Shown piece by piece: positions 8,641-64,000 of a stretch of DNA of 64,000 nt. Position 1 is the stretch's first letter, and the number at the start of each line of letters is the position of its first letter. The stretch is from Diplolepis rosae (lineage: Eukaryota; Arthropoda; Insecta; Hymenoptera; Diplolepididae). The notes under the pieces were generated by a model. The model did not search any database and had not been told where the DNA came from. It worked only from the letters and a program-made list of their open reading frames with translations. The stretch is taken from NCBI GenBank assembly GCA_030998225.1, contig JAPYXD010000724.1, forward strand, positions 671,564-735,563, in the 5' to 3' direction. The position numbers were made by a program, and so were the translations under genes.

Positions 8641-8734
8641 AAACCAATACCTTCCCATCCATGATGAGAATGTATAAAAAACAAACAAAAATTCTGGCCT
8701 GTTGTTTACAAATTTCTAAGTTTTTCGTTCATTT

Positions 8735-8985: not shown

Positions 8986-9014
8986 ATCGTAAGCCAATAA
9001 AAAATTTACAACGG

Positions 9015-9590: not shown

Positions 9591-9624
9591 TTCTGCATTG
9601 ATGGTTTACGTTTAGAATCCTGTT

Positions 9625-20945: not shown

Positions 20946-21208
20946 ATTCTTTTTTAATAAGAAATTTTTTTAAATTGCGGTCGGTTCGTGTGGAAATTTT
21001 TTTATGTTTCCCGGTTTAATTGTTATCCGGTTTTTTTATTTACAGTGAACTCTAAATATTTTTTCGAATCGTGATGCTGCATACTGGACTACTTCATTTT
21101 GAATTGCAAGCTTTGAGATAAGTTTTTGAATTCTATGATAATCCTTAATTTCATTATCTCCTATATTCTAATGTTTTACAGAAATTTTGAATTAATCTTT
21201 GAATTTAT

Positions 21209-21249
21209 GGCACTGAAGAGGGCCCCCATATGTGGCCGAAACGTTTGCC
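21209..21249 (+). ncRNA. Hammerhead ribozyme-like motif in monomer 1 (representative of 36 copies)
   Basis: Order: GGCA (21209-21212), CTGAAGA (21213-21219), stem II region GGGCC...TGGCC, GAAA, CG, TT, TGCC (ending 21249). This fits the hammerhead plan: stem I GGCA/UGCC (4 bp), stem II GGCC/GGCC with one extra G and a CCCATATGT loop, and stem III A15.1-C15.2/G16.2-U16.1. Cleavage would follow U17, before UGCC. Stem III has no loop, so a single molecule cannot form it; two cores must pair. Small hammerhead variants of this kind from Penelope-like elements have been reported to cleave as dimers. The same 41 bases recur at offset 278 of every monomer except those starting at 34109, 38424, 49324 and 52543. 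Activity is predicted, not shown. Confidence 0.65.
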
Positions 21250-22026
21250 TTGCTTTCTTTTCGAGTATTTTTATATGTAATAGTGAAAATTTTATTCGAA
21301 GGAAATAAAAAGAATCTGACCCTATGCCGAAATAACGAGAAATGAACATAAAATTCTATGAATTATGGGTCAATATAATAGCAGACATGTTATCGAACAT
21401 GTCACTTTAAAATTTTAAAATGGCACATTTAGTATAAAGGTTGACTATCTCATAGTTCTGACCATTTTCAGAACAAACTAAATCTATTAATACTTCCTAA
21501 AATGTGATACTTGATATCACGAATACTAAAATTGCATTTTTGTTATTTTTTAAAGATAAATGTAGTATTTTTCACAAAATCTCAGAATAAATCTGAATGC
21601 AGTAATAAACAACATTCAATTTTTTTTTTATTTATTGCTTAACATACTCAAATAATATTGAGTGGAAGTACATGTCTAGATATTATAATAATTTATGTTT
21701 TTGTAATGCCTTGCTTGCCAATTCAATGTTAAATGGATTGTCCGTGAAGCTGATATAAAAAAATCGTTTCTTCAAAAATACACGCCTTCCTCCACTCGTG
21801 AAAATCACCATAATCGTTTCGAATTTCTTTACTAGGTTTAGGACAATAGTCTTCTCAAGGAGCAAAAGAACCTCTCAGGATTTCTTATATAAAAAAATTT
21901 TCGGTCAGCAAAGCCACATGTCTTGAGTCGGTTTTTAAAACAGTTCAGATCATTCTGTGAGAGACTCCGGTAACAAAGTCTTCACGAAAAGTTTAAAAAT
22001 GTAAACCTTGTTCGCGTTCTGCCATT

Positions 22027-25000
22027 GATGAGCAATTTGGCATTCTTTTTTAATAAGAAATTTTTTTAAATTGCGGTCGGTTCGTGTGGAAATTTTTTTA
22101 TGTTTCCCGGTTTAATTGTTATCCGGTTTTTTTATTTACAGTGAACTCTAAATATTTTTTCGAATCGTGATGCTGCATACTGGACTACTTCATTTTGAAT
22201 TGCAAGCTTTGAGATAAGTTTTTGAATTCTATGATAATCCTTAATTTCATTATCTCCTATATTCTAATGTTTTACAGAAATTTTGAATTAATCTTTGAAT
22301 TTATGGCACTGAAGAGGGCCCCCATATGTGGCCGAAACGTTTGCCTTGCTTTCTTTTCGAGTATTTTTATATGTAATAGTGAAAATTTTATTCGAAGGAA
22401 ATAAAAAGAATCTGACCCTATGCCGAAATAACGAGAAATGAACATAAAATTCTATGAATTATGGGTCAATATAATAGCAGACATGTTATCGAACATGTCA
22501 CTTTAAAATTTTAAAATGGCACATTTAGTATAAAGGTTGACTATCTCATAGTTCTGACCATTTTCAGAACAAACTAAATCTATTAATACTTCCTAAAATG
22601 TGATACTTGATATCACGAATACTAAAATTGCATTTTTGTTATTTTTTAAAGATAAATGTAGTATTTTTCAAAAAATCTCAGAATAAATCTGAATGCAGTA
22701 ATAAACAACATTCAATTTATTTTTCTTTATTTATTGCTTAACATACTCAAATAATATTGAGTAAAAGTACATGTCTAGATATTATAATAATTTATGTTTT
22801 TGTAATGCCTTGCTTGCCAATTCAATGTTAAATGGATTGTCCGTGAAGCTGATATAAAAAAATCGTGTCTTCAAAAATACACGCCTTCCTCCACTCGTGA
22901 AAATCACCATAATCGTTTCGAATTTCTTTACTAGGTTTAGGACAATAGTCTTCTCAAGGAGCAAAAGAACCTCTCAAGATTTCTTATATAAAAAAATATT
23001 CGGTCAGCAAAGCCACATGTCTTGAGTCGGTTTTTAAAACAGTTCAGATTATTCTGTGAGAGACTCCGGTAACAAAGTCTTCACGAAAAGTTTAAAAATG
23101 TAAACCTTGTTCGCGTTCTGCCATTGATGAGCAATTTGGCATTCTTTTTTAATAAGAAATTTTTTTAAATTGCGGTCGGTTCGTGTGGAAATTTTTTTAT
23201 GTTTCCCGGTTTAATTGTTATCCGGTTTTTTTATTTACAGTGAACTCTAAATATTTTTTCGAATCGTGATGCTGCATACTGGACTACTTCATTTTGAATT
23301 GCAAGCTTTGAGATAAGTTTTTGAATTCTATGATAATCCTTAATTTCATTATCTCCTATATTCTAATGTTTTACAGAAATTTTGAATTAATCTTTGAATT
23401 TATGGCACTGAAGAGGGCCCCCATATGTGGCCGAAACGTTTGCCTTGCTTTCTTTTCGAGTATTTTTATATGTAATAGTGAAAATTTTATTCGAAGGAAA
23501 TAAAAAGAATCTGACCCTATGCCGAAATAACGAGAAATGAACATAAAATTCTATGAATTATGGGTCAATATAATAGCAGACATGTTATCGAACATGTCAC
23601 TTTAAAATTTTAAAATGGCACATTTAGTATAAAGGTTGACTATCTCATAGTTCTGACCATTTTCAGAACAAACTAAATCTATTAATACTTCCTAAAATGT
23701 GATACTTGATATCACGAATACTAAAATTGCATTTTTGTTATTTTTTAAAGATAAATGTAGTATTTTTCAAAAAATCTCAGAATAAATCTGAATGCAGTAA
23801 TAAACAACATTCAATTTATTTTTCTTTATTTATTGCTTAACATACTCAAATAATATTGAGTAAAAGTACATGTCTAGATATTATAATAATTTATGTTTTT
23901 GTAATGCCTTGCTTGCCAATTCAATGTTAAATGGATTGTCCGTGAAGCTGATATAAAAAAATCGTGTCTTCAAAAATACACGCCTTCCTCCACTCGTGAA
24001 AATCACCATAATCGTTTCGAATTTCTTTACTAGGTTTAGGACAATAGTCTTCTCAAGGAGCAAAAGAACCTCTCAAGATTTCTTATATAAAAAAATATTC
24101 GGTCAGCAAAGCCACATGTCTTGAGTCGGTTTTTAAAACAGTTCAGATTATTCTGTGAGAGACTCCGGTAACAAAGTCTTCACGAAAAGTTTAAAAATGT
24201 AAACCTTGTTCGCGTTCTGCCATTGATGAGCAATTTGGCATTCTTTTTTAATAAGAAATTTTTTTAAATTGCGGTCGGTTCGTGTGGAAATTTTTTTATG
24301 TTTCCCGGTTTAATTGTTATCCGGTTTTTTTATTTACAGTGAACTCTAAATATTTTTTCGAATCGTGATGCTGCATACTGGACTACTTCATTTTGAATTG
24401 CAAGCTTTGAGATAAGTTTTTGAATTCTATGATAATCCTTAATTTCATTATCTCCTATATTCTAATGTTTTACAGAAATTTTGAATTAATCTTTGAATTT
24501 ATGGCACTGAAGAGGGCCCCCATATGTGGCCGAAACGTTTGCCTTGCTTTCTTTTCGAGTATTTTTATATGTAATAGTGAAAATTTTATTCGAAGGAAAT
24601 AAAAAGAATCTGACCCTATGCCGAAATAACGAGAAATGAACATAAAATTCTATGAATTATGGGTCAATATAATAGCAGACATGTTATCGAACATGTCACT
24701 TTAAAATTTTAAAATGGCACATTTAGTATAAAGGTTGACTATCTCATAGTTCTGACCATTTTCAGAACAAACTAAATCTATTAATACTTCCTAAAATGTG
24801 ATACTTGATATCACGAATACTAAAATTGCATTTTTGTTATTTTTTAAAGATAAATGTAGTATTTTTCAAAAAATCTCAGAATAAATCTGAATGCAGTAAT
24901 AAACAACATTCAATTTTTTTTCCTTTATTTATTGCTTAACATACTCAAATAATATTGAGTAAAAGTACATGTCTAGATATTATAATAATTTATGTTTTTG

Positions 25001-28000
25001 TAATGCCTTGCTTGCCAATTCAATGTTAAATGGATTGTCCGTGAAGCTGATATAAAAAAATCGTGTCTTCAAAAATACACGCCTTCCTCCACTCGTGAAA
25101 ATCACCATAATCGTTTCGAATTTCTTTACTAGGTTTAGGACAATAGTCTTCTCAAGGAGCAAAAGAACCTCTCAAGATTTCTTATATAAAAAAATATTCG
25201 GTCAGCAAAGCCACATGTCTTGAGTCGGTTTTTAAAACAGTTCAGATTATTCTGTGAGAGACTCCGGTAACAAAGACTTCACGAAAAGTTTAAAAATGTA
25301 AACCTTGTTCGCGTTCTGCCATTGATGAGCAATTTGGCATTCTTTTTTAATAAGAAATTTTTTTAAATTGCGGTCGGTTCGTGTGGAAATTTTTTTATGT
25401 TTCCCGGTTTAATTGTTATCCGGTTTTTTTATTTACAGTGAACTCTAAATATTTTTTCGAATCGTGATGCTGCATACTGGACTACTTCATTTTGAATTGC
25501 AAGCTTTGAGATAAGTTTTTGAATTCTATGATAATCCTTAATTTCATTATCTCCTATATTCTAATGTTTTACAGAAATTTTGAATTAATCTTTGAATTTA
25601 TGGCACTGAAGAGGGCCCCCATATGTGGCCGAAACGTTTGCCTTGCTTTCTTTTCGAGTATTTTTATATGTAATAGTGAAAATTTTATTCGAAGGAAATA
25701 AAAAGAATCTGACCCTATGCCGAAATAACGAGAAATGAACATAAAATTCTATGAATTATGGGTCAATATAATAGCAGACATGTTATCGAACATGTCACTT
25801 TAAAATTTTAAAATGGCACATTTAGTATAAAGGTTGACTATCTCATAGTTCTGACCATTTTCAGAACAAACTAAATCTATTAATACTTCCTAAAATGTGA
25901 TACTTGATATCACGAATACTAAAATTGCATTTTTGTTATTTTTTAAAGATAAATGTAGTATTTTTCAAAAAATCTCAGAATAAATCTGAATGCAGTAATA
26001 AACAACATTCAATTTTTTTTTCTTTATTTATTGCTTAACATACTCAAATAATATTGAGTAAAAGTACATGTCTAGATATTATAATAATTTATGTTTTTGT
26101 AATGCCTTGCTTGCCAATTCAATGTTAAATGGATTGTCCGTGAAGCTGATATAAAAAAATCGTGTCTTCAAAAATACACGCCTTCCTCCACTCGTGAAAA
26201 TCACCATAATCGTTTCGAATTTCTTTACTAGGTTTAGGACAATAGTCTTCTCAAGGAGCAAAAGAACCTCTCAAGATTTCTTATATAAAAAAATATTCGG
26301 TCAGCAAAGCCACATGTCTTGAGTCGGTTTTTAAAACAGTTCAGATTATTCTGTGAGAGACTCCGGTAACAAAGACTTCACGAAAAGTTTAAAAATGTAA
26401 ACCTTGTTCGCGTTCTGCCATTGATGAGCAATTTGGCATTCTTTTTTAATAAGAAATTTTTTTAAATTGCGGTCGGTTCGTGTGGAAATTTTTTTATGTT
26501 TCCCGGTTTAATTGTTATCCGGTTTTTTTATTTACAGTGAACTCTAAATATTTTTTCGAATCGTGATGCTGCATACTGGACTACTTCATTTTGAATTGCA
26601 AGCTTTGAGATAAGTTTTTGAATTCTATGATAATCCTTAATTTCATTATCTCCTATATTCTAATGTTTTACAGAAATTTTGAATTAATCTTTGAATTTAT
26701 GGCACTGAAGAGGGCCCCCATATGTGGCCGAAACGTTTGCCTTGCTTTCTTTTCGAGTATTTTTATATGTAATAGTGAAAATTTTATTCGAAGGAAATAA
26801 AAAGAATCTGACCCTATGCCGAAATAACGAGAAATGAACATAAAATTCTATGAATTATGGGTCAATATAATAGCAGACATGTTATCGAACATGTCACTTT
26901 AAAATTTTAAAATGGCACATTTAGTATAAAGGTTGACTATCTCATAGTTCTGACCATTTTCAGAACAAACTAAATCTATTAATACTTCCTAAAATGTGAT
27001 ACTTGATATCACGAATACTAAAATTGCATTTTTGTTATTTTTTAAAGATAAATGTAGTATTTTTCAAAAAATCTCAGAATAAATCTGAATGCAGTAATAA
27101 ACAACATTCAATTTTTTTTTTATTTATTGCTTAACATACTCAAATAATATTGAGTAAAAGTACATGTCTAGATATTATAATAATTTATGTTTTTGTAATG
27201 CCTTGCTTGCCAATTCAATGTTAAATGGATTGTCCGTGAAGCTGATATAAAAAAATCGTGTCTTCAAAAATACACGCCTTCCTCCACTCGTGAAAATCAC
27301 CATAATCGTTTCGAATTTCTTTACTAGGTTTAGGACAATAGTCTTCTCAAGGAGCAAAAGAACCTCTCAAGATTTCTTATATAAAAAAATATTCGGTCAG
27401 CAAAGCCACATGTCTTGAGTCGGTTTTTAAAACAGTTCAGATTATTCTGTGAGAGACTCCGGTAACAAAGTCTTCACGAAAAGTTTAAAAATGTAAACCT
27501 TGTTCGCGTTCTGCCATTGATGAGCAATTTGGCATTCTTTTTTAATAAGAAATTTTTTTAAATTGCGGTCGGTTCGTGTGGAAATTTTTTTATGTTTCCC
27601 GGTTTAATTGTTATCCGGTTTTTTTATTTACAGTGAACTCTAAATATTTTTTCGAATCGTGATGCTGCATACTGGACTACTTCATTTTGAATTGCAAGCT
27701 TTGAGATAAGTTTTTGAATTCTATGATAATCCTTAATTTCATTATCTCCTATATTCTAATGTTTTACAGAAATTTTGAATTAATCTTTGAATTTATGGCA
27801 CTGAAGAGGGCCCCCATATGTGGCCGAAACGTTTGCCTTGCTTTCTTTTCGAGTATTTTTATATGTAATAGTGAAAATTTTATTCGAAGGAAATAAAAAG
27901 AATCTGACCCTATGCCGAAATAACGAGAAATGAACATAAAATTCTATGAATTATGGGTCAATATAATAGCAGACATGTTATCGAACATGTCACTTTAAAA

Positions 28001-34108: not shown

Positions 34109-35129
34109 GATGAGCAATTTGGCATTCTTTTTTAATAAGAAATTTTTTTAAAATGCGGTCGGTTCGTGTGGAAATTTTTTTATGTTTCCCGGTTTAATTG
34201 TTATCCGGTTTTTTTATTTACAGTGAACTCTAAATATTTTTTCGAATCGTGATGCTGCATACTGGACTACTTCATTTTGAATTGCAAGCTTTGAGATAAG
34301 TTTTTGAATTCTATGATAATCCTTAATTTCATTATCTCCTATATTCTAATGTTTTACAGAAATTCGAGTATTTTTATATCTAATAGTGAAAATTTTATTC
34401 GAAGGAAATAAAAAGAATCTGACCCTATGCCAAAATAACGAGAAATGAACAAAAAATTCTATGAATTATGGGTCAATATAATAGCAGACATGTTATCAAA
34501 CATGTCACTTTAAAATTTTAAAATGGCACATTTAGTATAAAGGTTGACTATCTCATAGTTCTGACCATTTTCAGAACAAACTAAATCTATTAATACTTCC
34601 TAAAATGTGATACTTGATATCACGAATACTAAAATTGCATTTTTGTTATTTTTTAAAGATAAATGTAGTATTTTTCAAAAAATCTCAGAATAAATCTGAA
34701 TGCAGTAATAAACAACATTCAATTTTTTTTTTATTTATTGCTTAACATACTCAAATAATATTGAGTGGAAGTACATGTCTAGATATTATAATAATTTATG
34801 TTTTTGTAATGCCTTGCTTGCCAATTCAATGTTAAATGGATTGTCCGTGAAGCTGATATAAAAAAATCGTTTCTTCAAAAATACACGCCTTCCTCCACTC
34901 GTGAAAATCACCATAAACGTTTCGAATTTCTTTACTAGGTATAGGACAATAGTCTTCTCAAGGAGCAAAAGAACCTCTCAGGATTTCTTATATAAAAAAA
35001 TATTCGGTCAGCAAAGCCACATGTCTTGAGTCGGTTTTTAAAACAGTTCAGATTATTCTGTGAGAGACTCCGGTAACAAAGTCTTCACGAAAAGTTTAAA
35101 AATGTAAACCTTGTTCGCGTTCTGCCATT
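34109..35129 (+). repeat. Monomer 13: hammerhead core deleted
   Basis: Length 1,021. The junction ACAGAAATT|CGAG lies at 34374/34375. Relative to full monomers 75 bases are missing, covering all of GGCA to TGCC. The TT before CGAG is shared by both edges, a 2-bp microhomology. It also has AAAATGCGGTC where others read AAATTGCGGTC, a marker shared with monomer 17. Confidence 0.9.
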
Positions 35130-38100
35130 GATGAGCAATTTGGCATTCTTTTTTAATAAGAAATTTTTTTAAATTGCGGTCGGTTCGTGTGGAAATTTTT
35201 TTATGTTTCCCGGTTTAATTGTTATCCGGTTTTTTTATTTACAGTGAACTCTAAATATTTTTTCGAATCGTGATGCTGCATACTGGACTACTTCATTTTG
35301 AATTGCAAGCTTTGAGATAAGTTTTTGAATTCTATGATAATCCTTAATTTCATTATCTCCTATATTCTAATGTTTTACAGAAATTTTGAATTAATCTTTG
35401 AATTTATGGCACTGAAGAGGGCCCCCATATGTGGCCGAAACGTTTGCCTTGCTTTCTTTTCGAGTATTTTTATATGTAATAGTGAAAATTTTATTCGAAG
35501 GAAATAAAAAGAATCTGACCCTATGCCGAAATAACGAGAAATGAACATAAAATTCTATGAATTATGGGTCAATATAATAGCAGACATGTTATCGAACATG
35601 TCACTTTAAAATTTTAAAATGGCACATTTAGTATAAAGGTTGACTATCTCATAGTTCTGACCATTTTCAGAACAAACTAAATCTATTAATACTTCCTAAA
35701 ATGTGATACTTGATATCACGAATACTAAAATTGCATTTTTGTTATTTTTTAAAGATAAATGTAGTATTTTTCAAAAAATCTCAGAATAAATCTGAATGCA
35801 GTAATAAACAACATTCAATTTTTTTTTCTTTATTTATTGCTTAACATACTCAAATAATATTGAGTAAAAGTACATGTCTAGATATTATAATAATTTATGT
35901 TTTTGTAATGCCTTGCTTGCCAATTCAATGTTAAATGGATTGTCCGTGAAGCTGATATAAAAAAATCGTGTCTTCAAAAATACACGCCTTCCTCCACTCG
36001 TGAAAATCACCATAATCATTTCGAATTTCTTTACTAGGTTTAGGACAATAGTCTTCTCAAGGAGCAAAAGAACCTCTCAAGATTTCTTATATAAAAAAAT
36101 ATTCGGTCAGCAAAGCCACATGTCTTGAGTCGGTTTTTAAAACAGTTCAGATTATTCTGTGAGAGACTCCGGTAACAAAGACTTCACGAAAAGTTTAAAA
36201 ATGTAAACCTTGTTCGCGTTCTGCCATTGATGAGCAATTTGGCATTCTTTTTTAATAAGAAATTTTTTTAAATTGTGGTCGGTTCGTGTGGAAATTTTTT
36301 TATGTTTCCCGGTTTAATTGTTATCCGGTCTTTTTATTTACAGTGAACTCTAAATATTTTTTCGAATCGTGATGCTGCATACTGGACTACTTCATTTTGA
36401 ATTGCAAGCTTTGAGATAAGTTTTTGAATTCTATGATAATCCTTAATTTCATTATCTCCTATATTCTAATGTTTTACAGAAATTTTGAATTAATCTTTGA
36501 ATTTATGGCACTGAAGAGGGCCCCCATATGTGGCCGAAACGTTTGCCTTGCTTTCTTTTCGAGTATTTTTATATGTAATAGTGAAAATTTTATTCGAAGG
36601 AAATAAAAAGAATCTGACCCTATGCCAAAATAACGAGAAATGAACAAAAAATTCTATGAATTATGGGTCAATATAATAGCAGACATGTTATCAAACATGT
36701 CACTTTAAAATTTTAAAATGGCACATTTAGTATAAAGGTTGACTATCTCATAGTTCTGACCATTTTCAGAACAAACTAAATCTATTAATACTTCCTAAAA
36801 TGTGATACTTGATATCACGAATACTAAAATTGCATTTTTGTTATTTTTTAAAGATAAATGTAGTATTTTTCACAAAATCTCAGAATAAATCTGAATGCAG
36901 TAATAAACAACATTCAATTTTTTTTTTATTTATTGCTTAACATACTCAAATAATATTGAGTGGAAGTACATGTCTAGATATTATAATAATTTATGTTTTT
37001 GTAATGCCTTGCTTGCCAATTCAATGTTAAATGGATTGTCCGTGAAGCTGATATAAAAAAATCGTTTCTTCAAAAATACACGCCTTCCTCCACTCGTGAA
37101 AATCACCATAAACGTTTCGAATTTCTTTACTAGGTATAGGACAATAGTCTTCTCAAGGAGCAAAAGAACCTCTCAGGATTTCTTATATAAAAAAATATTC
37201 GGTCAGCAAAGCCACATGTCTTGAGTCGGTTTTTAAAACAGTTCAGATTATTCTGTGAGAGACTCCGGTAACAAAGTCTTCACGAAAAGTTTAAAAATGT
37301 AAACCTTGTTCGCGTTCTGCCATTGATGAGCAATTTGGCATTCTTTTTTAATAAGAAATTTTTTTAAATTGCGGTCGGTTCGTGTGGAAATTTTTTTATG
37401 TTTCCCGGTTTAATTGTTATCCGGTTTTTTTATTTACAGTGAACTCTAAATATTTTTTCGAATCGTGATGCTGCATACTGGACTACTTCATTTTGAATTG
37501 CAAGCTTTGAGATAAGTTTTTGAATTCTATGATAATCCTTAATTTCATTATCTCCTATATTCTAATGTTTTACAGAAATTTTGAATTAATCTTTGAATTT
37601 ATGGCACTGAAGAGGGCCCCCATATGTGGCCGAAACGTTTGCCTTGCTTTCTTTTCGAGTATTTTTATATGTAATAGTGAAAATTTTATTCGAAGGAAAT
37701 AAAAAGAATCTGACCCTATGCCGAAATAACGAGAAATGAACATAAAATTCTATGAATTATGGGTCAATATAATAGCAGACATGTTATCGAACATGTCACT
37801 TTAAAATTTTAAAATGGCACATTTAGTATAAAGGTTGACTATCTCATAGTTCTGACCATTTTCAGAACAAACTAAATCTATTAATACTTCCTAAAATGTG
37901 ATACTTGATATCACGAATACTAAAATTGCATTTTTGTTATTTTTTAAAGATAAATGTAGTATTTTTCAAAAAATCTCAGAATAAATCTGAATGCAGTAAT
38001 AAACAACATTCAATTTTTTTTTCTTTATTTATTGCTTAACATACTCAAATAATATTGAGTAAAAGTACATGTCTAGATATTATAATAATTTATGTTTTTG

Positions 38101-38423: not shown

Positions 38424-39445
38424 GATGAGCAATTTGGCATTCTTTTTTAATAAGAAATTTTTTTAAAATGCGGTCGGTTCGTGTGGAAATTTTTTTATGT
38501 TTCCCGGTTTAATTGTTATCCGGTTTTTTTATTTACAGTGAACTCTAAATATTTTTTCGAATCGTGATGCTGCATACTGGACTACTTCATTTTGAATTGC
38601 AAGCTTTGAGATAAGTTTTTGAATTCTATGATAATCCTTAATTTCATTATCTCCTATATTCTAATGTTTTACAGAAATTCGAGTATTTTTATATCTAATA
38701 GTGAAAATTTTATTCGAAGGAAATAAAAAGAATCTGACCCTATGCCAAAATAACGAGAAATGAACAAAAAATTCTATGAATTATGGGTCAATATAATAGC
38801 AGACATGTTATCAAACATGTCACTTTAAAATTTTAAAATGGCACATTTAGTATAAAGGTTGACTATCTCATAGTTCTGACCATTTTCAGAACAAACTAAA
38901 TCTATTAATACTTCCTAAAATGTGATACTTGATATCACGAATACTAAAATTGCATTTTTGTTATTTTTTAAAGATAAATGTAGTATTTTTCAAAAAATCT
39001 CAGAATAAATCTGAATGCAGTAATAAACAACATTAAATTTTTTTTTTTATTTATTGCTTAACATACTCAAATAATATTGAGTGGAAGTACATGTCTAGAT
39101 ATTATAATAATTTATGTTTTTGTAATGCCTTACTTGCCAATTCAATGTTAAATGGATTGTCCGTGAAGCTGATATAAAAAAATCGTTTCTTCAAAAATAC
39201 ACGCCTTCCTCCACTCGTGAAAATCACCATAAACGTTTCGAATTTCTTTACTAGGTTTAGGACAATAGTCTTCTCAAGGAGCAAAAGAACCTCTCAAGAT
39301 TTCTTATATAAAAAAATATTCGGTCAGCAAAGCCACATGTCTTGAGTCGGTTTTTAAAACAGTTCAGATTATTCTGTGAGAGACTCCGGTAACAAAGTCT
39401 TCACGAAAAGTTTAAAAATGTAAACCTTGTTCGCGTTCTGCCATT
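38424..39445 (+). repeat. Monomer 17: hammerhead core deleted
   Basis: Length 1,022. It has the same ACAGAAATT|CGAG junction (38679/38680) and the same AAAATGCGGTC marker as monomer 13, four units away. The two are therefore copies of one deleted ancestor. Confidence 0.9.
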
Positions 39446-42400
39446 GATGAGCAATTTGGCATTCTTTTTTAATAAGAAATTTTTTTAAATTGCGGTCGGT
39501 TCGTGTTGAAATTTTTTTATGTTTCCCGGTTTAATTGTTATCCGGTTTTTTTATTTACAGTGAACTCTAAATATTTTTTCGAATCGTGATGCTGCATACT
39601 GGACTACTTCATTTTGAATTGCAAGCTTTGAGATAAGTTTTTGAATTCTATGATAATCCTTAATTTCATTATCTCCTATATTCTAATGTTTTACAGAAAT
39701 TTTGAATTAATCTTTGAATTTATGGCACTGAAGAGGGCCCCCATATGTGGCCGAAACGTTTGCCTTGCTTTCTTTTCGAGTATTTTTATATGTAATAGTG
39801 AAAATTTTATTCGAAGGAAATAAAAAGAATCTGACCCTATGCCGAAATAACGAGAAATGAACATAAAATTCTATGAATTATGGGTCAATATAATAGCAGA
39901 CATGTTATCGAACATGTCACTTTAAAATTTTAAAATGGCACATTTAGTATAAAGGTTGACTATCTCATAGTTCTGACCATTTTCAGAACAAACTAAATCT
40001 ATTAATACTTCCTAAAATGTGATACTTGATATCACGAATACTAAAATTGCATTTTTGTTATTTTTTAAAGATAAATGTAGTATTTTTCAAAAAATCTCAG
40101 AATAAATCTGAATGCAGTAATAAACAACATTCAATTTTTTTTTTATTTATTGCTTAACATACTCAAATAATATTGAGTAAAAGTACATGTCTAGATATTA
40201 TAATAATTTATGTTTTTGTAATGCCTTGCTTGCCAATTCAATGTTAAATGGATTGTCCGTGAAGCTGATATAAAAAAATCGTGTCTTCAAAAATACACGC
40301 CTTCCTCCACTCGTGAAAATCACCATAATCGTTTCGAATTTCTTTACTAGGTTTAGGACAATAGTCTTCTCAAGGAGCAAAAGAACCTCTCAAGATTTCT
40401 TATATAAAAAAATATTCGGTCAGCAAAGCCACATGTCTTGAGTCGGTTTTTAAAACAGTTCAGATTATTCTGTGAGAGACTCCGGTAACAAAGTCTTCAC
40501 GAAAAGTTTAAAAATGTAAACCTTGTTCGCGTTCTGCCATTGATGAGCAATTTGGCATTCTTTTTTAATAAGAAATTTTTTTAAATTGCGGTCGGTTCGT
40601 GTGGAAATTTTTTTATGTTTCCCGGTTTAATTGTTATCCGGTTTTTTTATTTACAGTGAACTCTAAATATTTTTTCGAATCGTGATGCTGCATACTGGAC
40701 TACTTCATTTTGAATTGCAAGCTTTGAGATAAGTTTTTGAATTCTATGATAATCCTTAATTTCATTATCTCCTATATTCTAATGTTTTACAGAAATTTTG
40801 AATTAATCTTTGAATTTATGGCACTGAAGAGGGCCCCCATATGTGGCCGAAACGTTTGCCTTGCTTTCTTTTCGAGTATTTTTATATGTAATAGTGAAAA
40901 TTTTATTCGAAGGAAATAAAAAGAATCTGACCCTATGCCGAAATAACGAGAAATGAACATAAAATTCTATGAATTATGGGTCAATATAATAGCAGACATG
41001 TTATCGAACATGTCACTTTAAAATTTTAAAATGGCACATTTAGTATAAAGGTTGACTATCTCATAGTTCTGACCATTTTCAGAACAAACTAAATCTATTA
41101 ATACTTCCTAAAATGTGATACTTGATATCACGAATACTAAAATTGCATTTTTGTTATTTTTTAAAGATAAATGTAGTATTTTTCAAAAAATCTCAGAATA
41201 AATCTGAATGCAGTAATAAACAACATTCAATTTTTTTTTCTTTATTTATTGCTTAACATACTCAAATAATATTGAGTGGAAGTACATGTCTAGATATTAT
41301 AATAATTTATGTTTTTGTAATGCCTTACTTGCCAATTCAATGTTAAATGGATTGTCCGTGAAGCTGATATAAAAAAATCGTTTCTTCAAAAATACACGCC
41401 TTCCTCCACTCGTGAAAATCACCATAAACGTTTCGAATTTCTTTACTAGGTATAGGACAATAGTCTTCTCAAGGAGCAAAAGAACCTCTCAGGATTTCTT
41501 ATATAAAAAAATATTCGGTCAGCAAAGCCACATGTCTTGAGTCGGTTTTTAAAACAGTTCAGATTATTCTGTGAGAGACTCCGGTAACAAAGTCTTCACG
41601 AAAAGTTTAAAAATGTAAACCTTGTTCGCGTTCTGCCATTGATGAGCAATTTGGCATTCTTTTTTAATAAGAAATTTTTTTAAATTGCGGTCGGTTCGTG
41701 TGGAAATTTTTTTATGTTTCCCGGTTTAATTGTTATCCGGTTTTTTTATTTACAGTGAACTCTAAATATTTTTTCGAATCGTGATGCTGCATACTGGACT
41801 ACTTCATTTTGAATTGCAAGCTTTGAGATAAGTTTTTGAATTCTATGATAATCCTTAATTTCATTATCTCCTATATTCTAATGTTTTACAGAAATTTTGA
41901 ATTAATCTTTGAATTTATGGCACTGAAGAGGGCCCCCATATGTGGCCGAAACGTTTGCCTTGCTTTCTTTTCGAGTATTTTTATATGTAATAGTGAAAAT
42001 TTTATTCGAAGGAAATAAAAAGAATCTGACCCTATGCCGAAATAACGAGAAATGAACATAAAATTCTATGAATTATGGGTCAATATAATAGCAGACATGT
42101 TATCGAACATGTCACTTTAAAATTTTAAAATGGCACATTTAGTATAAAGGTTGACTATCTCATAGTTCTGACCATTTTCAGAACAAACTAAATCTATTAA
42201 TACTTCCTAAAATGTGATACTTGATATCACGAATACTAAAATTGCATTTTTGTTATTTTTTAAAGATAAATGTAGTATTTTTCAAAAAATCTCAGAATAA
42301 ATCTGAATGCAGTAATAAACAACATTCAATTTTTTTTCATTTATTGCTTAACATACTCAAATAATATTGAGTAAAAGTACATGTCTAGATATTATAATAA

Positions 42401-49323: not shown

Positions 49324-50345
49324 GATGAGCAATTTGGCATTCTTTTTTAATAAGAAATTTTTTTAAATTGCGGTCGGTTCGTGTGGAAATTTTTTTATGT
49401 TTCCCGGTTTAATTGTTATCCGGTTTTTTTATTTACAGTGAACTCTAAATATTTTTTCGAATCGTGATGCTGCATACTGGACTACTTCATTTTGAATTGC
49501 AAGCTTTGAGATAAGTTTTTGAATTCTATGATAATCCTTAATTTCATTATCTCCTATATTCTAATGTTTTACAGAAATTCGAGTATTTTTATATCTAATA
49601 GTGAAAATTTTATTCGAAGGAAATAAAAAGAATCTGACCCTATGCCAAAATAACGAGAAATGAACAAAAAATTCTATGAATTATGGGTCAATATAATAGC
49701 AGACATGTTATCAAACATGTCACTTTAAAATTTTAAAATGGCACATTTAGTATAAAGGTTGACTATCTCATAGTTCTGACCATTTTCAGAACAAACTAAA
49801 TCTATTAATACTTCCTAAAATGTGATACTTGATATCACGAATACTAAAATTGCATTTTTGTTATTTTTTAAAGATAAATGTAGTATTTTTCAAAAAATCT
49901 CAGAATAAATCTGAATGCAGTAATAAACAACATTCAATTTTTTTTTTTATTTATTGCTTAACATACTCAAATAATATTGAGTGGAAGTACATGTCTAGAT
50001 ATTATAATAATTTATGTTTTTGTAATGCCTTACTTGCCAATTCAATGTTAAATGGATTGTTCGTGAAGCTGATATAAAAAAATCGTTTCTTCAAAAATAC
50101 ACGCCTTCCTCCACTCGTGAAAATCACCATAAACGTTTCGAATTTCTTTACTAGGTTTAGGACAATAGTCTTCTCAAGGAGCAAAAGAACCTCTCAAGAT
50201 TTCTTATATAAAAAAATATTCGGTCAGCAAAGCCACATGTCTTGAGTCGGTTTTTAAAACAGTTCAGATTATTCTGTGAGAGACTCCGGTAACAAAGTCT
50301 TCACGAAAAGTTTAAAAATGTAAACCTTGTTCGCGTTCTGCCATT
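49324..50345 (+). repeat. Monomer 27: hammerhead core deleted
   Basis: Length 1,022, with the same junction as 13 and 17 (49579/49580). It keeps the usual AAATTGCGGTC, so it is a recombinant or a different descendant of the deleted lineage. It is otherwise B-type, with GGATTGTTCGTG in place of GGATTGTCCGTG, as in monomer 25. Confidence 0.9.
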
Positions 50346-52542
50346 GATGAGCAATTTGGCATTCTTTTTTAATAAGAAATTTTTTTAAATTGCGGTCGGT
50401 TCGTGTGGAAATTTTTTTATGTTTCCCGGTTTAATTGTTATCCGGTTTTTTTATTTACAGTGAACTCTAAATATTTTTTCGAATCGTGATGCTGCATACT
50501 GGACTACTTCATTTTGAATTGCAAGCTTTGAGATAAGTTTTTGAATTCTATGATAATCCTTAATTTCATTATCTCCTATATTCTAATGTTTTACAGAAAT
50601 TTTGAATTAATCTTTGAATTTATGGCACTGAAGAGGGCCCCCATATGTGGCCGAAACGTTTGCCTTGCTTTCTTTTCGAGTATTTTTATATGTAATAGTG
50701 AAAATTTTATTCGAAGGAAATAAAAAGAATCTGACCCTATGCCGAAATAACGAGAAATGAACATAAAATTCTATGAATTATGGGTCAATATAATAGCAGA
50801 CATGTTATCGAACATGTCACTTTAAAATTTTAAAATGGCACATTTAGTATAAAGGTTGACTATCTCATAGTTCTGACCATTTTCAGAACAAACTAAATCT
50901 ATTAATACTTCCTAAAATGTGATACTTGATATCACGAATACTAAAATTGCATTTTTGTTATTTTTTAAAGATAAATGTAGTATTTTTCAAAAAATCTCAG
51001 AATAAATCTGAATGCAGTAATAAACAACATTCAATTTTTTTTTCTTTATTTATTGCTTAACATACTCAAATAATATTGAGTAAAAGTACATGTCTAGATA
51101 TTATAATAATTTATGTTTTTGTAATGCCTTGCTTGCCAATTCAATGTTAAATGGATTGTCCGTGAAGCTGATATAAAAAAATCGTGTCTTCAAAAATACA
51201 CGCCTTCCTCCACTCGTGAAAATCACCATAATCGTTTCGAATTTCTTTACTAGGTTTAGGACAATAGTCTTCTCAAGGAGCAAAAGAACCTCTCAAGATT
51301 TCTTATATAAAAAAATATTCGGTCAGCAAAGCCACATGTCTTGAGTCGGTTTTTAAAACAGTTCAGATTATTCTGTGAGAGACTCCGGTAACAAAGTCTT
51401 CACGAAAAGTTTAAAAATGTAAACCTTGTTCGCGTTCTGCCATTGATGAGCAATTTGGCATTCTTTTTTAATAAGAAATTTTTTTAAATTGCGGTCGGTT
51501 CGTGTGGAAATTTTTTTATGTTTCCCGGTTTAATTGTTATCCGGTTTTTTTATTTACAGTGAACTCTAAATATTTTTTCGAATCGTGATGCTGCATACTG
51601 GACTACTTCATTTTGAATTGCAAGCTTTGAGATAAGTTTTTGAATTCTATGATAATCCTTAATTTCATTATCTCCTATATTCTAATGTTTTACAGAAATT
51701 TTGAATTAATCTTTGAATTTATGGCACTGAAGAGGGCCCCCATATGTGGCCGAAACGTTTGCCTTGCTTTCTTTTCGAGTATTTTTATATGTAATAGTGA
51801 AAATTTTATTCGAAGGAAATAAAAAGAATCTGACCCTATGCCGAAATAACGAGAAATGAACATAAAATTCTATGAATTATGGGTCAATATAATAGCAGAC
51901 ATGTTATCGAACATGTCACTTTAAAATTTTAAAATGGCACATTTAGTATAAAGGTTGACTATCTCATAGTTCTGACCATTTTCAGAACAAACTAAATCTA
52001 TTAATACTTCCTAAAATGTGATACTTGATATCACGAATACTAAAATTGCATTTTTGTTATTTTTTAAAGATAAATGTAGTATTTTTCAAAAAATCTCAGA
52101 ATAAATCTGAATGCAGTAATAAACAACATTCAATTTTTTTTTCTTTATTTATTGCTTAACATACTCAAATAATATTGAGTAAAAGTACATGTCTAGATAT
52201 TATAATAATTTATGTTTTTGTAATGCCTTGCTTGCCAATTCAATGTTAAATGGATTGTCCGTGAAGCTGATATAAAAAAATCGTGTCTTCAAAAATACAC
52301 GCCTTCCTCCACTCGTGAAAATCACCATAATCGTTTCGAATTTCTTTACTAGGTTTAGGACAATAGTCTTCTCAAGGAGCAAAAGAACCTCTCAAGATTT
52401 CTTATATAAAAAAATATTCGGTCAGCAAAGCCACATGTCTTGAGTCGGTTTTTAAACAGTTCAGATTATTCTGTGAGAGACTCCGGTAACAAAGACTTCA
52501 CGAAAAGTTTAAAAATGTAAACCTTGTTCGCGTTCTGCCATT

Positions 52543-53570
52543 GATGAGCAATTTGGCATTCTTTTTTAATAAGAAATTTTTTTAAATTGCGGTCGGTTCG
52601 TGTGGAAATTTTTTTATGTTTCCCGGTTTAATTGTTATCCGGTCTTTTTATTTACAGTGAACTCTAAATATTTTTTCGAATCGTGATGCTGCATACTGGA
52701 CTACTTCATTTTGAATTGCAAGCTTTGAGATAAGTTTTTGAATTCTATGATAATCCTTAATTTCATTATCTCCTATATTCTAATGTTTTACAGAAAATCG
52801 AGTAGTATTTCTATATCTAATAGTGAAAATTTTATTCGAAGGAAATAAAAAGAATCTGACCCTATGCCAAAATAACGAGAAATGAACAAAAAATTCTATG
52901 AATTATGGGTCAATATAATAGCAGACATGTTATCAAACATGTCACTTTAAAATTTTAAAATGGCACATTTAGTATAAAGGTTGACTATCTCATAGTTCTG
53001 ACCATTTTCAGAACAAACTAAATCTATTAATACTTCCTAAAATGTGATACTTGATATCACGAATACTAAAATTGCATTTTTGTTATTTTTTAAAGATAAA
53101 TGTAGTATTTTTCAAAAAATCTCAGAATAAATCTGAATGCAGTAATAAACAACATTCAATTTTTTTTTCTTTATTTATTGCTTAACATACTCAAATAATA
53201 TTGAGTGGAAGTACATGTCTAGATATTATAATAATTTATGTTTTTGTAATGCCTTGCTTGCCAATTCAATGTTTAATGGATTGTCCGTGAAGCTGATATA
53301 AAAAAAATCGTTTCTTCAAAAATACACGCCTTCCTCCACTCGTGAAAATCACCATAAACGTTTCGAATTTCTTTACTAGGTTTAGGACAATAGTCTTCTC
53401 AAGGAGCAAAAGAACCTCTCAAGATTTCTTATATAAAAAAATATTCGGTCAGCAAAGCCACATGTCTTGAGTCGGTTTTTAAAACAGTTCAGATTATTCT
53501 GTGAGAGACTCCGGTAACAAAGTCTTCACGAAAAGTTTAAAAATGTAAACCTTGTTCGCGTTCTGCCATT
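52543..53570 (+). repeat. Monomer 30: hammerhead core deleted, different junction
   Basis: Length 1,028. The junction reads CAGAAAATCGAGTAGTATTTC (positions 52791-52811), not CAGAAATTCGAGTATTTT. It therefore arose by a separate event or was altered later. This unit also has CCGGTCTTTTT and one extra A in the A-tract before TCGTTTC. Confidence 0.85.
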
Positions 53571-56500
53571 GATGAGCAATTTGGCATTCTTTTTTAATAA
53601 GAAATTTTTTTAAATTGCGGTCGGTTCGTGTGGAAATTTTTTTATGTTTCCCGGTTTAATTGTTATCCGGTTTTTTTATTTACAGTGAACTCTAAATATT
53701 TTTTCGAATCGTGATGCTGCATACTGGACTACTTCATTTTGAATTGCAAGCTTTGAGATAAGTTTTTGAATTCTATGATAATCCTTAATTTCATTATCTC
53801 CTATATTCTAATGTTTTACAGAAATTTTGAATTAATCTTTGAATTTATGGCACTGAAGAGGGCCCCCATATGTGGCCGAAACGTTTGCCTTGCTTTCTTT
53901 TCGAGTATTTTTATATGTAATAGTGAAAATTTTATTCGAAGGAAATAAAAAGAATCTGACCCTATGCCGAAATAACGAGAAATGAACATAAAATTCTATG
54001 AATTATGGGTCAATATAATAGCAGACATGTTATCGAACATGTCACTTTAAAATTTTAAAATGGCACATTTAGTATAAAGGTTGACTATCTCATAGTTCTG
54101 ACCATTTTCAGAACAAACTAAATCTATTAATACTTCCTAAAATGTGATACTTGATATCACGAATACTAAAATTGCATTTTTGTTATTTTTTAAAGATAAA
54201 TGTAGTATTTTTCAAAAAATCTCAGAATAAATCTGAATGCAGTAATAAACAACATTCAATTTTTTTTCTTTATTTATTGCTTAACATACTCAAATAATAT
54301 TGAGTAAAAGTACATGTCTAGATATTATAATAATTTATGTTTTTGTAATGCCTTGCTTGCCAATTCAATGTTAAATGGATTGTCCGTGAAGCTGATATAA
54401 AAAAATCGTGTCTTCAAAAATACACGCCTTCCTCCACTCGTGAAAATCACCATAATCGTTTCGAATTTCTTTACTAGGTTTAGGACAATAGTCTTCTCAA
54501 GGAGCAAAAGAACCTCTCAAGATTTCTTATATAAAAAAATATTCGGTCAGCAAAGCCACATGTCTTGAGTCGGTTTTTAAAACAGTTCAGATTATTCTGT
54601 GAGAGACTCCGGTAACAAAGTCTTCACGAAAAGTTTAAAAATGTAAACCTTGTTCGCGTTCTGCCATTGATGAGCAATTTGGCATTCTTTTTTAATAAGA
54701 AATTTTTTTAAATTGCGGTCGGTTCGTGTGGAAATTTTTTTATGTTTCCCGGTTTAATTGTTATCCGGTTTTTTTATTTACAGTGAACTCTAAATATTTT
54801 TTCGAATCGTGATGCTGCATACTGGACTACTTCATTTTGAATTGCAAGCTTTGAGATAAGTTTTTGAATTCTATGATAATCCTTAATTTCATTATCTCCT
54901 ATATTCTAATGTTTTACAGAAATTTTGAATTAATCTTTGAATTTATGGCACTGAAGAGGGCCCCCATATGTGGCCGAAACGTTTGCCTTGCTTTCTTTTC
55001 GAGTATTTTTATATGTAATAGTGAAAATTTTATTCGAAGGAAATAAAAAGAATCTGACCCTATGCCGAAATAACGAGAAATGAACATAAAATTCTATGAA
55101 TTATGGGTCAATATAATAGCAGACATGTTATCGAACATGTCACTTTAAAATTTTAAAATGGCACATTTAGTATAAAGGTTGACTATCTCATAGTTCTGAC
55201 CATTTTCAGAACAAACTAAATCTATTAATACTTCCTAAAATGTGATACTTGATATCACGAATACTAAAATTGCATTTTTGTTATTTTTTAAAGATAAATG
55301 TAGTATTTTTCAAAAAATCTCAGAATAAATCTGAATGCAGTAATAAACAACATTCAATTTTTTTTTTTATTTATTGCTTAACATACTCAAATAATATTGA
55401 GTAAAAGTACATGTCTAGATATTATAATAATTTATGTTTTTGTAATGCCTTGCTTGCCAATTCAATGTTAAATGGATTGTCCGTGAAGCTGATATAAAAA
55501 AATCGTGTCTTCAAAAATACACGCCTTCCTCCACTCGTGAAAATCACCATAAACGTTTCGAATTTCTTTACTAGGTTTAGGACAATAGTCTTCTCAAGGA
55601 GCAAAAGAACCTCTCAAGATTTCTTATATAAAAAAATATTCGGTCAGCAAAGCCACATGTCTTGAGTCGGTTTTTAAACAGTTCAGATTATTCTGTGAGA
55701 GACTCCGGTAACAAAGACTTCACGAAAAGTTTAAAAATGTAAACCTTGTTCGCGTTCTGCCATTGATGAGCAATTTGGCATTCTTTTTTAATAAGAAATT
55801 TTTTTAAATTGCGGTCGGTTCGTGTGGAAATTTTTTTATGTTTCCCGGTTTAATTGTTATCCGGTTTTTTTATTTACAGTGAACTCTAAATATTTTTTCG
55901 AATCGTGATGCTGCATACTGGACTACTTCATTTTGAATTGCAAGCTTTGAGATAAGTTTTTGAATTCTATGATAATCCTTAATTTCATTATCTCCTATAT
56001 TCTAATGTTTTACAGAAATTTTGAATTAATCTTTGAATTTATGGCACTGAAGAGGGCCCCCATATGTGGCCGAAACGTTTGCCTTGCTTTCTTTTCGAGT
56101 ATTTTTATATGTAATAGTGAAAATTTTATTCGAAGGAAATAAAAAGAATCTGACCCTATGCCGAAATAACGAGAAATGAACATAAAATTCTATGAATTAT
56201 GGGTCAATATAATAGCAGACATGTTATCGAACATGTCACTTTAAAATTTGAAAATGGCACATTTAGTATAAAGGTTGACTATCTCATAGTTCTGACCATT
56301 TTCAGAACAAACTAAATCTATTAATACTTCCTAAAATGTGATACTTGATATCACGAATACTAAAATTGCATTTTTGTTATTTTTTAAAGATAAATGTAGT
56401 ATTTTTCAAAAAATCTCAGAATAAATCTGAATGCAGTAATAAACAACATTCAATTTTTTTTCTTTATTTATTGCTTAACATACTCAAATAATATTGAGTA

Positions 56501-59055: not shown

Positions 59056-62000
59056 GATGAGCAATTTGGCATTCTTTTTTAATAAGAAATTTTTTTAAAT
59101 TGTGGTCGGTTCGTGTGGAAATTTTTTTATGTTTCCCGGTTTAATTGTTATCCGGTCTTTTTATTTACAGTGAACTCTAAATATTTTTTCGAATCGTGAT
59201 GCTGCATACTGGACTACTTCATTTTGAATTGCAAGCTTTGAGATAAGTTTTTGAATTCTATGATAATCCTTAATTTCATTATCTCCTATATTCTAATGTT
59301 TTACAGAAATTTTGAATTAATCTTTGAATTTATGGCACTGAAGAGGGCCCCCATATGTGGCCGAAACGTTTGCCTTGCTTTCTTTTCGAGTATTTTTATA
59401 TGTAATAGTGAAAATTTTATTCGAAGGAAATAAAAAGAATCTGACCCTATGCCAAAATAACGAGAAATGAACAAAAAATTCTATGAATTATGGGTCAATA
59501 TAATAGCAGACATGTTATCAAACATGTCACTTTAAAATTTTAAAATGGCACATTTAGTATAAAGGTTGACTATCTCATAGTTCTGACCATTTTCAGAACA
59601 AACTAAATCTATTAATACTTCCTAAAATGTGATACTTGATATCACGAATACTAAAATTGCATTTTTGTTATTTTTTAAAGATAAATGTAGTATTTTTCAA
59701 AAAATCTCAGAATAAATCTGAATGCAGTAATAAACAACATTCAATTTTTTTTTCTTTATTTATTGCTTAACATACTCAAATAATATTGAGTAAAAGTACA
59801 TGTCTAGATATTATAATAATTTATGTTTTTGTAATGCCTTGCTTGCCAATTCAATGTTTAATGGATTGTCCGTGGAGCTGATATAAAAAAATCGTTTCTT
59901 CAAAAATACACGCCTTCCTCCACTCGTGAAAATCACCATAAACGTTTCGAATTTCTTTACTAGGTTTAGGACAATAGTCTTCTCAAGGAGCAAAAGAACC
60001 TCTCAAGATTTCTTATATAAAAAAATATTCGGTCAGCAAAGCCACATGTCTTGAGTCGGTTTTTAAAACAGTTCAGATTATTCTGTGAGAGACTCCGGTA
60101 ACAAAGTCTTCACGAAAAGTTTAAAAATGTAAACCTTGTTCGCGTTCTGCCATTGATGAGCAATTTGGCATTCTTTTTTAATAAGAAATTTTTTTAAATT
60201 GCGGTCGGTTCGTGTGGAAATTTTTTTATGTTTCCCGGTTTAATTGTTATCCGGTTTTTTTATTTACAGTGAACTCTAAATATTTTTTCGAATCGTGATG
60301 CTGCATACTGGACTACTTCATTTTGAATTGCAAGCTTTGAGATAAGTTTTTGAATTCTATGATAATCCTTAATTTCATTATCTCCTATATTCTAATGTTT
60401 TACAGAAATTTTGAATTAATCTTTGAATTTATGGCACTGAAGAGGGCCCCCATATGTGGCCGAAACGTTTGCCTTGCTTTCTTTTCGAGTATTTTTATAT
60501 GTAATAGTGAAAATTTTATTCGAAGGAAATAAAAAGAATCTGACCCTATGCCGAAATAACGAGAAATGAACATAAAATTCTATGAATTATGGGTCAATAT
60601 AATAGCAGACATGTTATCGAACATGTCACTTTAAAATTTTAAAATGGCACATTTAGTATAAAGGTTGACTATCTCATAGTTCTGACCATTTTCAGAACAA
60701 ACTAAATCTATTAATACTTCCTAAAATGTGATACTTGATATCACGAATACTAAAATTGCATTTTTGTTATTTTTTAAAGATAAATGTAGTATTTTTCAAA
60801 AAATCTCAGAATAAATCTGAATGCAGTAATAAACAACATTCAATTTTTTTTTCTTTATTTATTGCTTAACATACTCAAATAATATTGAGTAAAAGTACAT
60901 GTCTAGATATTATAATAATTTATGTTTTTGTAATGCCTTGCTTGCCAATTCAATGTTAAATGGATTGTCCGTGAAGCTGATATAAAAAAATCGTGTCTTC
61001 AAAAATACACGCCTTCCTCCACTCGTGAAAATCACCATAATCGTTTCGAATTTCTTTACTAGGTTTAGGACAATAGTCTTCTCAAGGAGCAAAAGAACCT
61101 CTCAAGATTTCTTATATAAAAAAATATTCGGTCAGCAAAGCCACATGTCTTGAGTCGGTTTTTAAAACAGTTCAGATTATTCTGTGAGAGACTCCGGTAA
61201 CAAAGTCTTCACGAAAAGTTTAAAAATGTAAACCTTGTTCGCGTTCTGCCATTGATGAGCAATTTGGCATTCTTTTTTAATAAGAAATTTTTTTAAATTG
61301 CGGTCGGTTCGTGTGGAAATTTTTTTATGTTTCCCGGTTTAATTGTTATCCGGTTTTTTTATTTACAGTGAACTCTAAATATTTTTTCGAATCGTGATGC
61401 TGCATACTGGACTACTTCATTTTGAATTGCAAGCTTTGAGATAAGTTTTTGAATTCTATGATAATCCTTAATTTCATTATCTCCTATATTCTAATGTTTT
61501 ACAGAAATTGTGAATTAATCTTTGAATTTATGGCACTGAAGAGGGCCCCCATATGTGGCCGAAACGTTTGCCTTGCTTTCTTTTCGAGTATTTCTATATC
61601 TAATAGTGAAAATTTTATTCGAAGGAAATAAAAAGAATCTGACCCTATGCCAAAATAACGAGAAATGAACAAAAAATTCTATGAATTATGGGTCAATATA
61701 ATAGCAGACATGTTATCAAACATGTCACTTTAAAATTTTAAAATGGCACATTTAGTATAAAGGTTGACTATCTCATAGTTCTGACCATTTTCAGAACAAA
61801 CTAAATCTATTAATACTTCCTAAAATGTGATACTTGATATCACGAATACTAAAATTGCATTTTTGTTATTTTTTAAAGATAAATGTAGTATTTTTCAAAA
61901 AATCTCAGAATAAATCTGAATGCAGTAATAAACAACATTCAATTTATTTTTTATTTTTTGCTTAACTTACTCAAATAATATTGAGTAAAAGTACATGTCT

Positions 62001-64000
62001 AGATATTATAATAATTTATGTTTTTGTAATGCCTTGCTTGCCAATTCAATGTTTAATGGATTGTCCGTGGAGCTGATATAAAAAAATCGTTTCTTCAAAA
62101 ATACACGCCTTCCTCCACTCGTGAAAATCACCATAAACGTTTCGAATTTCTTTACTAGGTTTAGGACAATAGTCTTCTCGAGGAGCAAAAGAACCTCTCA
62201 AGATTTCTTATATAAAAAAATATTCGGTCAGCAAAGCCACATGTCTTGAGTCGGTTTTTAAAACAGTTCAGATTATTCTGTGAGAGACTCCGGTAACAAA
62301 GTCTTCACGAAAAGTTTAAAAATGTAAACCTTGTTCGCGTTCTGCCATTGATGAGCAATTTGGCATTCTTTTTTAATAAGAAATTTTTTTAAATTGCGGT
62401 CGGTTCGTGTGGAAATTTTTTTATGTTTCCCGGTTTAATTGTTATCCGGTGTTTTTATTTACAGTGAACTCTAAATATTTTTTCGAATCGTGATGCTGCA
62501 TACTGGACTACTTCATTTTGAATTGCAAGCTTTGAGATAAGTTTTTGAATTCTATGATAATCCTTAATTTCATTATCTCCTATATTCTAATGTTTTACAG
62601 AAATTTTGAATTAATCTTTGAATTTATGGCACTGAAGAGGGCCCCCATATGTGGCCGAAACGTTTGCCTTGCTTTCTTTTCGAGTATTTTTATATGTAAT
62701 AGTGAAAATTTTATTCGAAGGAAATAAAAAGAATCTGACCCTATGCCGAAATAACGAGAAATGAACATAAAATTCTATGAATTATGGGTCAATATAATAG
62801 CAGACATGTTATCGAACATGTCACTTTAAAATTTTAAAATGGCACATTTAGTATAAAGGTTGACTATCTCATAGTTCTGACCATTTTCAGAACAAACTAA
62901 ATCTATTAATACTTCCTAAAATGTGATACTTGATATCACGAATACTAAAATTGCATTTTTGTTATTTTTTAAAGATAAATGTAGTATTTTTCAAAAAATC
63001 TCAGAATAAATCTGAATGCAGTAATAAACAACATTCAATTTATTTTTTATTTATTGCTTAACATACTCAAATAATATTGAGTAAAAGTACATGTCTAGAT
63101 ATTATAATAATTTATGTTTTTGTAATGCCTTGCTTGCCAATTCAATGTTAAATGGATTGTCCGTGAAGCTGATATAAAAAAATCGTGTCTTCAAAAATAC
63201 ACGCCTTCCTCCACTCGTGAAAATCACCATAATCGTTTCGAATTTCTTTACTAGGTTTAGGACAATAGTCTTCTCAAGGAGCAAAAGAACCTCTCAAGAT
63301 TTCTTATATAAAAAAATATTCGGTCAGCAAAGCCACATGTCTTGAGTCGGTTTTTAAAACAGTTCAGATTATTCTGTGAGAGACTCCGGTAACAAAGTCT
63401 TCACGAAAAGTTTAAAAATGTAAACCTTGTTCGCGTTCTGCCATTGATGAGCAATTTGGCATTCTTTTTTAATAAGAAATTTTTTTAAATTGCGGTCGGT
63501 TCGTGTGGAAATTTTTTTATGTTTCCCGGTTTAATTGTTATCCGGTTTTTTTATTTACAGTGAACTCTAAATATTTTTTCGAATCGTGATGCTGCATACT
63601 GGACTACTTCATTTTGAATTGCAAGCTTTGAGATAAGTTTTTGAATTCTATGATAATCCTTAATTTCATTATCTCCTATATTCTAATGTTTTACAGAAAT
63701 TTTGAATTAATCTTTGAATTTATGGCACTGAAGAGGGCCCCCATATGTGGCCGAAACGTTTGCCTTGCTTTCTTTTCGAGTATTTTTATATGTAATAGTG
63801 AAAATTTTATTCGAAGGAAATAAAAAGAATCTGACCCTATGCCGAAATAACGAGAAATGAACATAAAATTCTATGAATTATGGGTCAATATAATAGCAGA
63901 CATGTTATCGAACATGTCACTTTAAAATTTTAAAATGGCACATTTAGTATAAAGGTTGACTATCTCATAGTTCTGACCATTTTCAGAACAAACTAAATCT
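59056..64000 (+). repeat. Array right part, units 36-40, alternation resumes and runs off the edge
   Basis: Units 36 and 38 are B-type; 37 and 39 are A-type; 40 is incomplete. Unit 36 shares AATTGTGGTCGG and CCGGTCTTTTT with unit 15 (36229), which links distant parts of the array. The array has no right boundary in the window. Confidence 0.75.

Follow-up and report, generated by a model that had tools for sequence, protein, structure and literature searches.

A Diplolepis rosae satellite array with a minimal hammerhead-like motif in most of its units

Organisation of the array and its dispersed relatives

We analysed a 64,000-nucleotide stretch of Diplolepis rosae DNA (the window; assembly GCA_030998225.1, contig JAPYXD010000724.1, positions 671,564 to 735,563 of the forward strand). 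A satellite array occupies the window from position 20946 up to the right edge, and most of its units of about 1.1 kb carry a motif resembling the core of a hammerhead ribozyme. Cutting the array at one shared anchor set the unit boundaries and gave 40 units in head-to-tail order, of which 39 are complete (1021-1099 bp) and the final one is truncated at position 64000. Relative to a 1099-bp consensus, each complete unit has 0 to 17 substitutions; substitutions among these units affect 40 of the 1099 consensus positions, all of them outside the core. No open reading frame (ORF) of at least 70 aa was found in the unit, the stop-free frames of which span 40-63 aa. As a long, non-coding head-to-tail array of 40 near-identical units, the repeat is satellite DNA.

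The core, defined here as the exact 41-mer GGCACTGAAGAGGGCCCCCATATGTGGCCGAAACGTTTGCC, is present in 36 of the 40 units, and its earliest copy starts at position 21209. A first-pass annotation made from the letters of the window had described the satellite with the motif order intact in 36 units, and exact matching bore out both this description and its coordinates. The 36 array cores represent one amplified event and are not counted as 36 independent observations. The other four units have a gap that spans the core (Table 1). This gap is 75 bp long and has identical ends in three of them, while in the fourth it is 72 bp long with a different junction. The three units sharing the same gap are spaced 4 and 10 units apart. 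Units have therefore spread within the array without a core, which indicates that the array grew at the DNA level.

Two partial copies of the unit, one dispersed and one inverted, were found to the left of the array and had been absent from the first-pass annotation (Table 1). Due to the inverted copy, the left edge of the array forms an inverted repeat (20652-21224) with 226-nt arms that are 96% complementary and separated by 121 nt. If read through, this edge would yield a transcript folding as a long hairpin that might provide substrates for small-RNA pathways. The 63-aa stop-free stretch across the core led to 17 predicted proteins (of 18 candidates, with E values of at most 10), 13 of them at E values of 2e-10 or lower and four between 0.003 and 0.18. 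All 17 match the satellite unit by tblastn, and the core-spanning peptide LKR...GRNVC is kept in 13, the exceptions being P0037, P0038, P0039 and P0045. In P0035 the reverse strand of the element is read first and the forward strand next, a second inverted arrangement. Taken with the dispersed and inverted copies, these read-through proteins argue that the satellite unit is part of a dispersed repeat.

Searches of viral contig DNA returned no relatives of the unit, 27 matches to a loose form of the core and three matches to an upstream 20-mer that had no hammerhead-like motif nearby; genome contig DNA likewise returned no relatives, and three loose-core matches. A 20-mer at unit positions 147-166 (21147-21169 region in the first unit), CTTCATTTTGAATTGCAAGC, has the same sequence in the array as in the copy at 8689, and assigning it a promoter role would be speculation. 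A stretch at 2228-2368 on the minus strand resembles unit positions 428-470 (77% over 43 columns) as well as the tail of P0037 and may be a degenerate relative of the element. When the remainder of the unit was aligned with the left flank, scores of 629-650 were obtained against 606 for the top of 12 shuffles; the alignments were gap-rich and AT-rich, and we make no claim from them.

Anatomy and controls of the hammerhead-like core

Written as RNA, the core reads GGCA CUGAAGA (stem-loop II) GAA ACGU U UGCC. A 2011 survey requires the residues C3, U4, G5, A6, N7, G8, A9, G12, A13, A14, A15, U16 and H17 (PMC3088659), and all 13 are present at each of the three loci, i.e. in the array core, the core at 8920 and the inverted core. 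Stem I comprises 4 bp and pairs 1.1-2.1 are formed at all three. A single core has no stem III. Its place is taken by ACGU, which is self-complementary and can pair only with a second core (15.1-16.1 between two cores). In stem II of the array core, GGGCC stands opposite GGCC, which results in one surplus G and two contiguous pairs beside the core; two are also present in the 8920 copy and four in the inverted copy only. The first-pass annotation had taken both stems to be complementary. This holds for the 4 bp of stem I, whereas stem II of the array is not clean. The position given there for the TGCC after the predicted cut in the first unit, 21246, is correct. Differences among the three loci are confined to stem and loop II, where the palindromic sequence CAUAUG is kept throughout, and leave the catalytic residues and stem I unchanged.

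The chance expectation for such a motif was estimated with a descriptor combining a 4-bp stem I with a 4-bp stem II containing at most one bulge. The full descriptor turned up six times in 930 Mb of random sequence (first order, matched to the make-up of the window), corresponding to 2.8e-4 expected per 44 kb. It was drawn up after the motif had been seen, and the 8920 copy fails it in stem II, which there has 3 bp and a bulge. Thirty contig loci that contain the literal loose core by chance (27 viral, 3 genome) served as negative control. None of them has a 4-bp stem I, compared with three of three loci here. Four contiguous stem II pairs were observed at two control loci, both of the same sequence, and the array core has only two bulge-free pairs, so that it is stem I which separates our loci from the controls. 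A model built from the three loci (R1) gave 64-71 bits for the copies, which match it by construction, and at best 23.9 bits for the control loci. Its search of positions 1-22045 detected no additional copy, the next best score being 8.7 bits.

Table 1. Coordinates of the satellite array, its core-less units, partial copies and the elements of the first core
Feature	Position	Strand	Basis
Satellite array, 40 head-to-tail units (39 complete), leaving the window	20946..64000	+	Unit starts and alignment
Core-less unit, 75-bp gap	34128..35148	+	Gap across core
Core-less unit, 75-bp gap, ends as in the 34128 unit	38443..39464	+	Gap across core
Core-less unit, 75-bp gap, ends as in the 34128 unit	49343..50364	+	Gap across core
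Core-less unit, 72-bp gap, other junction	52562..53589	+	Gap across core
Unit positions 27-349, dispersed copy with core 8920-8962	8689..9008	+	80% identity; model match (model built from it)
Unit positions 1-325, inverted copy facing the array head to head, with core 20630-20667	20611..20929	-	95% identity
First hammerhead-like core (36 identical array copies)	21209..21249	+	Exact matches
Stem I 5' strand GGCA	21209..21212	+	Pairs with 21246-21249 in minimum-energy fold
Conserved core CUGAAGA (C3-A9)	21213..21219	+	Sequence
Stem-loop II, GGGCC..GGCC, one G unpaired	21220..21237	+	Sequence, folding
GAA (12-14) and self-complementary ACGU replacing stem III	21238..21244	+	Sequence; pairing with a second core inferred
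U17, predicted cut after U17, then stem I 3' strand UGCC	21245..21249	+	Position inferred from hammerhead numbering

Passive carriage or activity of the motif

The explanation we favour, and consider rather likely, is that DNA-level amplification of a non-coding dispersed repeat gave rise to the satellite, in which a hammerhead motif of the minimal type I known from Penelope-like elements travels as a passenger. Unequal exchange or a similar process would have amplified a repeat that already carried the motif, which would have been copied because it is located in the unit. On a transcript, two cores would pair via ACGU, complete the active site and cut after U17. If the array is transcribed, this cutting would probably be slow or require a protein. 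Penelope-type hammerheads are described in two reviews as minimal type I forms without helix III that may cut as dimers (PMC7761336, PMC6155905). In a study of one Penelope-like hammerhead, cutting in vitro depended on the presence of its protein, reads ending at the cut site were absent, and loss of the hammerhead left insertion unaffected (PMC11167929). We judge it very likely that the core is a real hammerhead-derived motif, and are somewhat doubtful of any cutting by its array form. Its derivation from a Penelope-like element would rest on resemblance, because no Penelope-like protein (Pfam: telomerase-like RT, GIY-YIG) was found in the 17 of 44 ORFs scanned (at least 70 aa, positions 1-23145); our claim concerns likeness to a Penelope-like hammerhead and not membership in Penelope-like elements.

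This lack of a Penelope-like protein is one of several results that weigh against the passenger motif as proposed. An Rfam scan of the window yielded no family at threshold. At E values up to 10, no hammerhead model matched the array core or the 8920 core, the models being used without a positive control of known minimal Penelope-type cores, and solely the inverted core gave a weak match to the type III hammerhead model, scoring 13.1 bits (E 2.2) where the threshold is 48.5. The first-pass annotation had named a failure of covariance models on every copy as speaking against its hammerhead, and the outcome came close to this. The remaining matches at lax thresholds (microRNA, sRNA, snoRNA etc., all sub-threshold and many over the inverted repeat) were taken as chance. 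Stems I and II do constitute the minimum-energy fold of the isolated array core and of the isolated inverted core. The best fold of the array core, however, places the surplus G between A9 and stem II (-12.2 kcal/mol), and the register in which 10.1 pairs with 11.1 reaches -7.9 kcal/mol, so that the surplus G costs 4.3 kcal/mol. The minimum-energy fold of the 8920 core is not a hammerhead. Folding energies are ordinary: among 2000 shuffled versions of each core, an energy as low or lower was reached by 678 for the array core and by 313 for the inverted core. When two array cores were folded together, the most stable complex was an extended duplex (-33.6 kcal/mol), compared with -23.3 kcal/mol for a dimer hammerhead leaving the surplus G unpaired and -14.3 kcal/mol for one with canonical stem II. 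Passive carriage also falls short of proof, given that 36 of 40 units retain the core, but in so uniform an array this retention does not show selection. The interpretation in the first-pass annotation is supported in part: a minimal, dimer-type, Penelope-like type I core fits the anatomy and the two reviews, whereas the Rfam result, the surplus G in stem II, the greater stability of the duplex, the core-less units and the protein requirement of the Penelope-like hammerhead above speak against its proposal that array transcripts could cut themselves into 1.1-kb RNAs.

The ordinary folding energy would also suit the view that the core is no ribozyme and owes its resemblance to chance or to a repeat feature acting at the DNA level, such as a binding site or an open frame from the ATG just before the core. 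So would the open frame that crosses the core in the 17 predicted proteins. Comparison of the array with the 8689 copy points both ways. The core is identical in 40 of 43 columns versus 78% of 287 columns elsewhere (Fisher p = 0.014, one test), but the best-conserved 43-column block (42/43) lies further upstream, beginning 27 columns before the core, and the core window is equalled or exceeded in conservation by 36 of 288 windows. Against this view stand the low chance expectation and the restriction of the differences among the three loci to stem and loop II. A coding explanation was rejected, if weakly, on the grounds that the frame 3' of the core differs between copies, as seen in P0048 and P0049, which match the unit in two frames with a shift after the core. 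Coding on the minus strand was likewise rejected in comparison with the 8689 copy, as the substitutions (10, 8 and 4 by codon position over 158 columns) are not concentrated. Overall, we regard an origin of the motif unrelated to ribozymes as quite improbable.

A self-processing satellite, in which paired cores cut array transcripts to RNAs of 1.1 kb that end in 5'-OH and cyclic phosphate and are perhaps circularised and reverse transcribed in a retrozyme-like manner, appears unlikely to us, albeit with some points in its favour. The layout is tandem, 36 cores are intact and their ACGU sequences could pair with each other; hammerhead repeats of other animals are transcribed, cut and circularised (PMC7229834). 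In unit-length context, mean pair probabilities are as high as 0.94 for stem I and 0.98 for the inner two pairs of stem II. These values drop to 0.57 and 0.60, respectively, with 200 nt on each side, and the surplus G, the preference of two cores for the extended duplex and the protein requirement and missing cut-site reads of the only Penelope-like hammerhead tested all argue against self-processing. Core-less units moreover persist in the array, the growth of which is possible without a core. A still bolder scheme, to which we attach very little probability, would have a Penelope-like enzyme mobilise the 1.1-kb unit as a non-autonomous element. Paired minimal hammerheads, assisted by kissing of their CAUAUG loops II and perhaps by a Penelope-like protein, would then give rise to kilobase circular RNAs and these to tandem, inverted and dispersed genomic copies. 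If true, such an element would be a bridge between Penelope hammerheads and retrozymes.

Neighbouring sequences and known hammerhead repeats

To the left of the array, a 97-bp minisatellite of 5.5 copies (9052-9581) lies inside long open frames. It is shared by 11 predicted proteins, indicating that it is a dispersed repeat as well. Proteins matching the frame at 8914-9681 were considered as relatives of the core and discarded, since their common part is this minisatellite and the core is not shared. The remnant of a hAT transposase (18214-20360, plus strand, at least two frames; Dimer_Tnp_hAT, E 7.8e-08) adjoins the array. Nine of its 21 relatives have a named source, namely ants, a bee and wasps, and the closest relatives are outside those nine. 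ARAGORN found no tRNA gene.

Cervera and de la Pena in 2014 and Lunse and coworkers in 2017 reportedly described minimal type I hammerheads of Penelope-like elements. The core studied here has the same type I order, the same CUGANGA and GAAA sequences, no proper stem III and the same predicted need for a dimer. In contrast to those hammerheads, it is located in a long non-coding satellite, is accompanied by no Penelope-like protein in the ORFs scanned and has a surplus G in stem II. As in the PAc Penelope-like element, the hammerhead lies beside a start codon (PMC11167929).

Metazoan retrozymes are AT-rich tandem repeats with one type I hammerhead each, and in this they resemble the array. They have, however, units of 150-450 bp and canonical type I hammerheads with loop contacts (PMC7229834), whereas the present unit measures 1.02-1.10 kb and bears a minimal core without stem III. 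The minimal dimer-type motif is of a known kind, here residing in a satellite unit that is longer than the size given for metazoan hammerhead repeats. Dolichopoda pDo500 and newt satellite 2 are also animal satellites with hammerheads for which cutting by two cores has been described or proposed. The former, pDo500, differs from our array in having stem III within the single core and newt satellite 2 in its units of about 330 bp, and cutting has been demonstrated for both (PMC2837043, PMC6155905, PMC7229834). The W elements of Schistosoma mansoni share satellite-like units, hammerheads in some families and dispersed copies of mobile appearance; the hammerheads of W25.2, W26.2, W27.2 and W36.2, however, are three-stem junctions, unlike the core without stem III described here, and three tested candidates cut (PMC8490949). 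No description of the present satellite was found in the open-licence literature among the titles and beginnings of abstracts listed, which is a weak absence.

With 36 intact and four naturally deleted cores, the uniform array offers a test bed for cutting in vivo, in which the deleted units can serve as internal controls. Should the cores turn out not to cut, the array would clearly illustrate how a growing satellite can take a ribozyme motif along.

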